The position numbers and the translations under genes were made by a program. Below the pieces are notes generated by a model that made no database searches, had not been told where the DNA came from, and saw only the letters and a list, made by a program, of their open reading frames with translations. From a virus, in the IMG/VR virus record IMGVR_UViG_3300033146_002322, positions 1 to 20,529 of that record: a DNA stretch of 20,529 nucleotides, one strand, 5' to 3'. Shown piece after piece: positions 1,095-12,948 of the stretch (position 1 is its first letter; each line of letters begins with the position of its first letter).

Positions 1095-1123
1095 AATATA
1101 CTATTTTATTTGCATCATGTCAA
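1095..1123 (-). promoter_or_regulatory. sigma70-like promoter for the nucleotidyltransferase gene
   Basis: On the minus strand the -35 TTGACA (1118-1123) is followed by a 17-base spacer and the -10 TATATT (1095-1100). The start codon at 1062 lies about 30 bases downstream. The -35 overlaps the last codons of the upstream resolvase gene, whose stop is at 1115-1117. It has the same architecture as four other sites in the window. Confidence 0.7.
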
Positions 1124-1783
1124 GTCTTTTTGGATAAAATCCCTAACTAATAAATTTGTTGGTTGAGATTTAGATACAGCATTAAATACTTCTATTTGTT
1201 TATTTGATAATTGTTTGAGCGTTATCACACCATTACGCAATTGTAATTCTGTTAATAATAACTTCATAATCCAATACGCATCGATAATATCTTCTTGAGG
1301 ATTTGTTAAGTCTTGTAAATGTGATAATGATAATAATTTTTGAGATTCTTTATTGAACTGATCAAACATCATTTTTTTATTTGCAGAACCATTGCCTGTT
1401 GCGTATTTTTTGATAGCTGATGGTGTATATATGCGTAAAGGAGTATTATGGTCATATATCATGCTTTTAGTAAGAGATGTAGCCTCAGCAATATTGAACA
1501 CTTTACCCATACCACCCATTGCATATCCTTCAATTGCTATATAATCAGGGACATCTTTCCCATATATATATGATTCCATTTTATCTCGTAAAAATTGAAA
1601 TCTACTAATATCATCTTTAAAATTTTTTTTAACATTATGATGTAAATTATCATCTATTTTGCAATTTTTTAGTGTAGATGAAAACGACATATAACCTATA
1701 GATAATATATTTAAATTATCGTCTAGTTCGGCTTTTACAACAGCAGGGGATGAAATACTATAATCAATTCCACATATAAACAT
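1115..1783 (-). CDS. RuvC-like Holliday junction resolvase
   Basis: A 222-residue protein of the RNase H-fold RuvC-like family, predicted to cut four-way DNA junctions formed during recombination and replication. Visible features are the N-terminal GIDYSISS strand with D7, the second-strand acidic residue E85 in YIAIEGYAMG, a conserved-looking block PSAIKKYATGNGSANKK (121-137), and C-terminal acidic residues D165 and D168 in QEDIIDAYW. This supplies the expected catalytic acidic set. T4 itself uses the unrelated endonuclease VII (gp49), so this is a functional replacement. AGGAG sits 8 bases before the ATG, but both lie in a stem-loop (1778-1818) formed with the end of the primase gene. Translation is therefore probably coupled to primase translation. 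The family is well supported; substrate is inferred. Confidence 0.85.
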   Translation of the reverse strand: MFICGIDYSISSPAVVKAELDDNLNILSIGYMSFSSTLKNCKIDDNLHHNVKKNFKDDISRFQFLRDKMESYIYGKDVPDYIAIEGYAMGGMGKVFNIAEATSLTKSMIYDHNTPLRIYTPSAIKKYATGNGSANKKMMFDQFNKESQKLLSLSHLQDLTNPQEDIIDAYWIMKLLLTELQLRNGVITLKQLSNKQIEVFNAVSKSQPTNLLVRDFIQKDLT

Positions 1784-1818
1784 AAATAGTCTCCTAGTAT
1801 AAAAAACTATTTATGTTT
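1778..1818 (-). promoter_or_regulatory. RNA stem-loop over the resolvase start codon
   Basis: A perfect 13-bp inverted repeat (arms 1778-1790 and 1806-1818) surrounds a 15-base loop. In the minus-strand mRNA the 5' arm contains the primase stop codon (TAA at 1811-1813), the loop holds the Shine-Dalgarno AGGAG, and the 3' arm contains the resolvase ATG (1781-1783). Folding would leave the ribosome site open but pair the start codon. The 5' arm also reads CATAAATA (minus strand, 1808-1815), one base away from the T4 late promoter TATAAATA; that match is weak on its own in DNA this AT-rich. Confidence 0.65.
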
Positions 1819-2809
1819 TTTGTTTATCCACAGGAAAGTATATTTTATCAGTTATATTATTTGTAAAATATGACGAAATCATATCCCACGTCAAGATATC
1901 AATATTTTCATTATTATACATGATAAAATCATTAACATCCTTAATATCACGATTACATTTATGATCTTTTAAGAATTTTGACCAATTAAACACATATTTT
2001 CTAAGTTTTAACAATTTAATAGCATTTTTATTGCCACTATTATCATTATCCACCATAAAATATTTTTGTTTAAAATCATTAAGTCTATCATCTTTTAATT
2101 TCAATCCTGTCACTGCAACACTGTTTGCTACAAAAATAGAATCTATAGGTCCTTCAAGAATAATTACAGGTTTATCCTTATCAACATTATAATAATTATA
2201 GACGCTATTATGGATACCATATCTAGAAAGATATTTAACGCCTATCTTATTATTAAATTTACGCCCTTGATAATAATATATTTTACCAGTTGCATTATTT
2301 CTGAACGGTATTATTATTCTACCTTTATATAACCCGCCAACAGAATAATACCATTTAGAATATACCTCTTTTGGTATTTTTCTATTCTCACAAAATTGGA
2401 CACAGTCCTCAAATTTAAGAATAGACTTGAAATGTTTAGTATCTTCTTTTTCATCTCTTTCTTGAGAACTTTTTACTTTTTTAATATTATCATATTTATT
2501 TTGGTCCATTATAGATGATTTATTTTGACGAATGACATCTCCCATATATCGTTTATAATCATCATTAAAATATTGTTTCATCCAATTAGGAACAGACATT
2601 GATACTTGACAATTATGACAATAATAGACCCATGGTTCTTTATTTTTTAATAAATATCCCCGTTTAAGATATTTATCTTTTTTAGAATCACCACAAACAT
2701 TACAACGAACGTTATAAAAGTCGCTTGTTTCAAACACCTCGGTAAAATTTCTACTGAGTATAGAACGAACGTGTCGTTCTAATATAAATTCATCATAATA
2801 TAAATTCAT
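1811..2809 (-). CDS. DNA primase, T4 gp61 / DnaG type
   Basis: A 332-residue primase that would make RNA primers for lagging-strand synthesis together with the gp41-type helicase. The N-terminal zinc-binding domain has two CxxC pairs (C36/C39 in RCNVCG and C64/C67 in YCHNC). The Toprim domain follows, with PFRN and YYYQGRKF near 168-184, the catalytic E219 in ILEGPIDS, and the metal-binding DND at 254-256. A DVNDF motif is at 291-295. Length is close to T4 gp61 (about 340 residues). The start at 2809 is preceded by GAAAGGG, placed just after the gp32 terminator, so expression probably depends on read-through of that terminator. The stop is embedded in the stem-loop that covers the resolvase start. 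Confidence 0.9.
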   Translation of the reverse strand: MNLYYDEFILERHVRSILSRNFTEVFETSDFYNVRCNVCGDSKKDKYLKRGYLLKNKEPWVYYCHNCQVSMSVPNWMKQYFNDDYKRYMGDVIRQNKSSIMDQNKYDNIKKVKSSQERDEKEDTKHFKSILKFEDCVQFCENRKIPKEVYSKWYYSVGGLYKGRIIIPFRNNATGKIYYYQGRKFNNKIGVKYLSRYGIHNSVYNYYNVDKDKPVIILEGPIDSIFVANSVAVTGLKLKDDRLNDFKQKYFMVDNDNSGNKNAIKLLKLRKYVFNWSKFLKDHKCNRDIKDVNDFIMYNNENIDILTWDMISSYFTNNITDKIYFPVDKQKT

Positions 2810-2822
2810 AATACCCTTTCAT

Positions 2823-2854
2823 AAAAAAATGGGAGTGTATATGACACTCCCATT
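2823..2854 (-). terminator. rho-independent terminator after the gp32 gene
   Basis: Arms AATGGGAGTGT (2828-2838) and ACACTCCCATT (2844-2854) form a perfect 11-bp stem with a 5-base loop. Read on the minus strand the stem is followed directly by a run of seven T (complement of 2823-2829). This is a textbook intrinsic terminator about 20 bases after the gp32 stop and just before the primase ribosome binding site. Confidence 0.88.
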
Positions 2855-11503: not shown

Positions 11504-12547
11504 TTATATCACGGAATCGTGTATATCGTTAATTAAATATAAAATATCTTCTTTATTATCTATGGCATCAGTATTGTTTATATATGTTTCAAATAAATCT
11601 TTAACTGAATTTATATTATTTGCAGTAATATCAAAATCACTATGTTCATGAATTATAATATTCAATGAAGGATTTAATTCTAGAGGTTTCAGTTTCTCTA
11701 TAGATTCTAAATATTTATCTATAACATCTCCCTGAGCCTCTTCCTTCTCAATAGTAATTATAGCATCAACAATATTACCTTCAACAACTTCAGCATCTGG
11801 TATCTCTGGGTATTCAACTTCAATATATTTGATTGAAACATTATTACTAATACGTTTATATCTAAGAGTATCTAAATTCAATACTATAAATCCTTTATCT
11901 TCACCTAAATCATTTCTGTTTGTCTGATAAGGAGAACCGCAATAAATAATTTCTGTAGAACCTATACGTTTCGAACTGGGGGTGTGATAATGACCACTAA
12001 ATACTTTTTTAAATTTTGTAAAATCTTCAGGATGTAGACCTATAGAACTAATCCTAGTTTTATTTAAATTAAACCCAACAATATCAAAATGACCAAATAA
12101 TAATTTTGCTGGAGATTTTTCAAATTCCGAAATAATAGATGTGTCAGAATAATCAACAACCCAAGGACACCACAATATATCAACACCGTTAATGTTTATA
12201 GTTTCAATTTCATCAACAATTCTAACATTATCTAATAAATTTAATGTTTTTAATGAATGCACTTCGTTAGTAGTTTTATAATATATATCGTGATTACCAA
12301 TTAATATAATTATCTCAATATTGGCAAAATCTACAGCAAATAATTTATGAACTTCATTACTAACATGAACATTTATGGCTGTTCTATTTTCATAAACATC
12401 ACCTAGAATGAATAATCTAGTAATATTATTATCATTCATGTAAGGCAATAGTTGTTTTTTAAAAAAAAGTAAAGAGCTTTCTAAAAATATCTCAGAATTT
12501 TTATTAACACCAAAATGTATATCGCTTATTAACACAGTTTTATTCAT
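11504..12547 (-). CDS. gp47 / SbcD-Mre11-type nuclease subunit
   Basis: A 347-residue calcineurin-like phosphoesterase, the nuclease partner of the gp46 (SbcC/Rad50) ATPase, which processes DNA ends for recombination. All Mre11 metal-site motifs are present: SDIHFG (D9, H11), LGDVYENR (D50), GNHD (84-87), FGHFD (H153) and SGHYH (H186, H188). Length matches T4 gp47 (339). The start codon overlaps the stop codon of the gp55-like gene by one base (TAATG), and only a weak AAGAAAG lies upstream. Translation is therefore probably coupled to that gene. gp46 is encoded two genes upstream in the same unit. Confidence 0.93.
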   Translation of the reverse strand: MNKTVLISDIHFGVNKNSEIFLESSLLFFKKQLLPYMNDNNITRLFILGDVYENRTAINVHVSNEVHKLFAVDFANIEIIILIGNHDIYYKTTNEVHSLKTLNLLDNVRIVDEIETININGVDILWCPWVVDYSDTSIISEFEKSPAKLLFGHFDIVGFNLNKTRISSIGLHPEDFTKFKKVFSGHYHTPSSKRIGSTEIIYCGSPYQTNRNDLGEDKGFIVLNLDTLRYKRISNNVSIKYIEVEYPEIPDAEVVEGNIVDAIITIEKEEAQGDVIDKYLESIEKLKPLELNPSLNIIIHEHSDFDITANNINSVKDLFETYINNTDAIDNKEDILYLINDIHDSVI

Positions 12548-12948
12548 TACATTTCTTTCTTATCTATATTTTCTATAAACGGCAATTTAACTAAAATCTC
12601 CATATCAGCATATTTAGATTTTAACAATCTTTGTGCTCCACTAAAAGCATATTGACTAAAATATGAAAATGGATCCGGTAATATATCATATTCCTCATAC
12701 CGTTTCTCCATTTTTTCCACATCATAATTGTGTTTGTATCTACACATATCAAAAACTGCTTCAGATATCATATCATCTTTCCAGTCTTTAGAATAATTTA
12801 TATATCTCGGTCTATTTAAATAATTCTCAGCAATAGATAAGAAAAATTTACCTATTTTATTATATGATTTTTGTGATTTAGTCTCATTATATTCTTTTAA
12901 TGCGTTATGAAACTCCAATTTATCTACGTAATAATTATTATCACCCAT
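12547..12948 (-). CDS. gp55-like sigma factor for late transcription (short form)
   Basis: A 133-residue protein whose middle matches the T4 gp55 pattern: an IAE...L helix, then WKDDMISEAVFDMCRYKHNYD (about residues 56-76), then PFSYFSQYAFSGAQRLLKSK, like WKQEMIADGI...NFDE...PHAYITQACFNAFVQRIKK in gp55. This corresponds to the sigma region 2-like part that binds the RNA polymerase clamp and reads the late promoter. At 133 residues it is shorter than T4 gp55 (185). No clear hydrophobic-acidic clamp-binding tail is visible; the protein ends IENIDKKEM. A strong GGAGGA site precedes ATG 12948. Position between gp46 and gp47 genes is also typical of T4-type phages. Confidence 0.8.
   Translation of the reverse strand: MGDNNYYVDKLEFHNALKEYNETKSQKSYNKIGKFFLSIAENYLNRPRYINYSKDWKDDMISEAVFDMCRYKHNYDVEKMEKRYEEYDILPDPFSYFSQYAFSGAQRLLKSKYADMEILVKLPFIENIDKKEM

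Follow-up and report, generated by a model that had tools for sequence, protein, structure and literature searches.

Translation from the early read-through RNA of T4 e, soc, I-TevI, I-TevII, I-TevIII and segB, and of mobE in phage Aeh1, is inhibited by a stem whose 5′ arm is dropped from transcripts that start at a late promoter (PMC3014915, PMC2988022). Inhibitory structures of this kind are reviewed for e, soc, 49 and I-TevI in one source (PMC3014915), and I-TevII is given the same arrangement in another (PMC2988022). Especially pertinent here is gene 49, whose product, endonuclease VII, resolves Holliday junctions: the core of its late promoter (AATAAATA) is in the 5′ arm and the start-codon side in the 3′ arm, with the stop codon of the upstream gene, pin, just before the hairpin. 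In the other cases listed it is lysis, capsid decoration or a homing endonuclease that is under control and not a resolvase, which sets them apart from the locus considered here even though the arrangement of stem and late promoter is alike. A literature search, mostly without subscription papers, found no report of such a switch on resolvases of the RuvC type, those of the Ackermannviridae included.

The present locus is in a 20.5-kb fragment from a virus of bacteria ('the window', meaning the whole stretch analysed). We consider it highly probable that a hairpin at the start of its predicted resolvase gene is an early-off, late-on timing switch of the T4 type, placed on a different resolvase fold. 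The relevant features are as follows.

1115–1783, minus strand: gene for a predicted RuvC-like Holliday junction resolvase, 222 aa, ATG at 1783–1781 (phrog_159, E 1e-33; Pfam RuvC).
1778–1790, minus strand: 3′ arm of the hairpin, ACUAUUUAUGUUU, which includes the resolvase AUG (from sequence, fold and opening cost).
1791–1795, minus strand: Shine-Dalgarno AGGAG, the last five bases of the loop, at its 3′ end (from sequence).
1806–1818, minus strand: 5′ arm of the hairpin in the mRNA, AAACAUAAAUAGU, the perfect complement of 1778–1790.
1808–1815, minus strand: late-promoter-like element, CATAAATA, with a predicted start at about 1802 (from recurrence in relatives and the T4 rule).
1811–2809, minus strand: DNA primase gene, stop UAA at 1813–1811 (phrog_47, E 6e-47).
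12547–12948, minus strand: gene for a gp55-type late sigma factor (phrog_234, E 3e-19).

Besides these, the window encodes a gp32-like SSB, a helicase, UvsX, a polymerase and SbcCD-like proteins, and because of this gene set, the gp55-like sigma included, its source is taken to be a phage of the T4 superfamily whose late transcription is of the T4 type. Comparison of the window with phages by megablast gave no match, and no near relative is among those deposited. Primase and resolvase are 27 nt apart within a replication-gene cluster, and a terminator scan found none between the two and one before primase. A strong terminator-like stem (11 pairs and a T-run; 2828–2854, minus strand) lies between the SSB gene and primase, and a promoter-like sequence at 2879–2852 overlaps it.

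Profile and structural comparisons point to a RuvC-like resolvase, predicted to bind junctions. The score against Pfam RuvC, 23.5 bits, is just over the cut-off of 22.2, a profile search of PDB sequences gave a match to one RuvC chain, and an AlphaFold model (mean pLDDT 80) has as its best solved matches in Foldseek the RuvC proteins of Deinococcus, Thermus and E. coli (best E 1e-7). Four acidic residues, D7, E85, D165 and D168, are unchanged across eight sequences and are probably the counterparts of the RuvC active-site residues. Relatives share an almost invariant N-terminus, M[F/I]ICGIDYS, which makes the choice of start codon secure. Endonuclease_7 and dimerisation domains, present in T4 gp49 (endonuclease VII, PF02945), are absent from the window protein, and the difference in family from T4 that had been proposed in the initial annotation is thereby upheld.

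On the minus strand, 1818–1806 pairs with 1790–1778 in a perfect 13-bp stem closing a 15-nt loop (1791–1805); the arms, which read AAACATAAATAGT at 1778–1790 and ACTATTTATGTTT at 1806–1818, are perfect reverse complements of each other. The resolvase AUG (1783–1781) is paired inside the 3′ arm and, in the minus-strand mRNA, the primase UAA (1813–1811) lies within the 5′ arm, so that the layout of stem, ATG, AGGAG and primase stop described in the initial annotation is borne out letter for letter. It is the sole perfect inverted repeat in the window with arms of at least 13 and a loop of 3–20, and it falls exactly on a start codon; any perfect inverted repeat of that size was present in just 3 of 100 shuffles of the whole window. 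Folding of this region (81 nt, + strand) gives −12.8 kcal/mol with a z of −2.7, which 3 of 200 shuffles matched.

Also within the 5′ arm, at 1815–1808, is CATAAATA. By the T4 rule that the late promoter element occupies −13 to −6 (PMC1524935), the predicted start is at 1802, and a gp55-type sigma, also encoded by the relatives G001 and G017, is the expected reader of this putative late promoter. The element was dropped as evidence when taken alone, because the one-mismatch motif TATAAATA is at chance frequency in the window (182 occurrences against 169 expected). Its weight comes instead from recurrence at the same place among related sequences, where TAAATA is enriched 20–40 nt upstream of gene starts.

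What such a start would mean for ribosome access was modelled as an opening cost, the energy to unpair −14 to +3, in read-through RNA and in RNA with the late start. For the resolvase the read-through cost is 15.5 kcal/mol (14.4–15.1 with 100–400 nt of context), the highest among the 18 gene starts of the window that a gene caller placed and that were scored, and that in late RNA from 1802 is about 2.8–2.9 kcal/mol. The difference persists with contexts between −60 and −400 and with every 5′ end between 1800 and 1805, for which the late-RNA cost is 2.7–3.8 kcal/mol. The proposal that a transcript from the candidate late promoter would lack the 5′ arm is therefore supported by the predicted start at 1802 and by the modelled 2.9 kcal/mol that is left. 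As a positive control about 40 gene starts across 37 kb of T4 were scored identically, and the only motif-bearing genes among them whose high cost drops in late RNA were gene 49, e (15.7 to 3.8 kcal/mol) and I-TevII (13.4 to 0.3 kcal/mol). By modelled opening costs the leaders of gene 49 (15.7 to 2.7 kcal/mol) and of the window resolvase (15.5 to 2.8) are alike. They differ in their setting: the upstream gene is pin in T4, and in the window it is primase, with its stop inside the arm.

With a T4-type switch, early or middle transcripts of primase would continue into the resolvase gene 27 bases on and carry both arms, the AUG would be paired, and ribosomes would be unable to start. At late times, polymerase with the gp55-type sigma would initiate at CATAAATA, whose −10 element belongs to the 5′ arm, and the RNA, beginning near 1802 without that arm, would be translated. 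We infer that the replication cluster is transcribed early, and that the purpose would be to withhold the resolvase during recombination-dependent replication and to supply it when branched DNA needs trimming for packaging. The T4 gene 49-like switch proposed in the initial annotation gains good computational support from the matching T4 costs, from recurrence in three groups of phages and from co-evolution of the arms in swap tests. Because the proteins are non-homologous and nothing but the promoter core is common to the stems, shared ancestry with the T4 control and separate origin are both compatible with the comparison.

Eight close relatives from IMG/VR (65–78% identity) were available, and in seven the TAAATA core is at the same place, once as TAGATA. 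The resolvase leader of L004 is without promoter and without hairpin, and in those of L007 and L008 the promoter core is present with no clear stem sequestering the ribosome-binding site. In L008 a stem forms around the promoter and leaves the ribosome-binding site uncovered; its resolvase frame is also broken at an A run (L008:3100–3150), by sequencing error or in a decayed gene. The layout is found with different stem sequences in distant relatives of about 31–36% identity, and overall at RuvC-like resolvases of three deep groups: the relatives of the window, an uncultured group, and the Ackermannviridae (Menlow, GOT, RPN242, SKML-39, IME250, EspM4VN and Bue1). In the Ackermannviridae the TAAATA core is again in the 5′ arm and the ribosome-binding site in the 3′ arm, and costs fall from 15–21 to 3–5 kcal/mol. 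They differ from the window in protein sequence (~31% identity), in their GC-richer stems, in the upstream gene and in promoter-to-ATG distance (36–38 nt versus 24).

The 47 distinct resolvase leaders with a promoter core have a median cost of 12.1 kcal/mol in long RNA and 2.7 in late RNA, and 39 of them have the hairpin, as against 5 of 23 leaders without the promoter. These leaders are related and not independent, forming three clusters at 50% protein identity, all positive; with so few independent cases and phylogeny uncorrected, p-values overstate certainty. The gene upstream of the resolvase varies by group (primase, a cell-wall hydrolase, an epimerase-like gene so labelled by eye, and unknowns), so that the switch follows the resolvase and not its neighbour. 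Neither a core in range nor a strong stem was found at the resolvases of Mosig (whose start, assigned by hand, is uncertain), Cr30, SRB7757, pYD6-A, nACB2, RL38J1, Cygsa01 and Vibrio K447/K469. The ribosome-binding site is inside a stem in the leaders L051, L052, L056 and L064, of PhiW-14, phiA8-29, DLP_6 and Kuja, and TAAATA is absent within range; a variant promoter in PhiW-14 may be TAAGTA.

Since late promoters and start-codon spacers are both AT-rich, they might pair by chance and yield a functionless stem, and such a by-product is suggested by the AT-rich arms and by the inherent complementarity of TAAATA and UUUA. It is nonetheless very improbable given how other genes of the same phages behave: the 106 others with a late motif do not pair, their medians being 4.45 kcal/mol in long and 2.96 in late RNA with a median gain of 0.93, and a gain of at least 5 kcal/mol is seen for 12% of them versus 87% of resolvase leaders. 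Chance pairing was rejected on these control genes. Shuffled leaders seldom match the native ones (median z 3.5), and GC-richer stems have the same layout in the Ackermannviridae. A resolvase with the motif was picked up by the gene caller in seven genomes, and by gain it ranked first or second among motif-bearing genes in six of them and fifth in the other.

Conservation of paired positions, named in the initial annotation as a check, gave a divided answer. Among the seven closest alignable leaders, 85% of cells are paired and there is one two-sided change, which is no better than shuffles; the lack of significant column covariation within the window clade is the remaining point in favour of a by-product. 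As MAFFT alignments of the other groups misplace inserted pairs, an alignment-free test was used, in which each 5′ segment was paired with the 3′ segment of the same leader and with those of other leaders in its group. Native arms outpair swapped ones in the window clade (p 0.03), the Ackermannviridae (5e-5) and two uncultured subgroups (0.003 and <5e-5), at −11.3 versus −9.6 kcal/mol over all groups. With the 3′ segment reversed the effect is mostly gone (p 0.05 overall, no group significant). Taken across groups, the swap test thus favours co-evolution of the arms.

A different reading of the hairpin is translational coupling, in which resolvase synthesis would depend on ribosomes finishing primase, and both proteins would be made together early. 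The primase stop inside the 5′ arm fits this, as does the position of the upstream stop in most leaders, at the promoter or just 5′ of it. That ribosomes finishing primase would open the stem, as had been suggested, held in part: a modelled terminating ribosome cuts the cost in the window from 14.8 to 8.1 kcal/mol and does not open the stem fully. It leaves 2.1–5.3 kcal/mol in leaders L002, L003, L005 and L006, but still 11.7–14.4 in the Ackermannviridae and 13.0 in T4 gene 49, and because their stems stay closed coupling is downgraded as a general mechanism. Nor is the upstream gene the same between groups, and coupling explains neither the co-occurrence of promoter and hairpin nor the placing of a late promoter core within the 5′ arm. 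It would, moreover, oppose an early off state. Coupling is thus an unlikely explanation; judged from the modelled costs, it could coexist in the window clade as leakage through the lock, with the shared design not explained by it.

The layout is not confined to resolvases. Downstream of the resolvase in the window-clade relatives L002 (6016–6483) and L004 (6067 onward) is a gp4-like head-closure or TnsA-like nuclease gene whose ribosome-binding site is in a hairpin that includes a late-promoter core; the cost there is 16.4 falling to 0.8 kcal/mol in L002 and 12.8 kcal/mol in L004, whose resolvase leader does not carry the switch. The endolysin (muramidase) gene of Klebsiella phage Menlow (L053:8775–9569), with 17.0 falling to 3.0 kcal/mol, has the same layout and parallels T4 gene e. 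In uncultured phages it is seen at genes for an HNH homing endonuclease, a tail-fibre-assembly-like protein, a head-tail adaptor and a prohead protease; uncultured-phage loci with a late-promoter hairpin are L179:16289–17278, L173:342–680, L162:5326–6069 and L174:12177–12851. Such genes are relevant to whether the inverted repeat acts instead as DNA, a cruciform or palindrome bound by the resolvase or another protein that would autoregulate its own promoter. The product is a predicted junction-binding enzyme and the repeat overlaps its own promoter-like element, but endolysin, homing endonuclease and gp4-like genes, none for a resolvase, share the layout, and control at the RNA level accounts for the match between the late start and the arm that is lost. 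Cruciform extrusion is poorly served by a 15-nt loop. Action as DNA is accordingly the least probable of the explanations, with hardly any likelihood left to it.

With the early-off, late-on switch as the preferred reading, one RNA lock would be present on unrelated resolvases, endonuclease VII in T4 and the RuvC fold in the window and the Ackermannviridae, with stems and upstream genes differing. Whether this reflects a general rule for large T4-superfamily phages, that there be no packaging resolvase during recombination-dependent replication, is put forward tentatively, the chances being a little short of even. Comparing read-through and late-transcript opening costs, a scan that recovers known T4 cases, points to other late genes concealed within early operons. 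If the rule holds, there is a testable prediction for cultured Ackermannviridae, and the lock on T4 gene 49 would be one case of a widespread timing control of resolvases that survives replacement of the enzyme.
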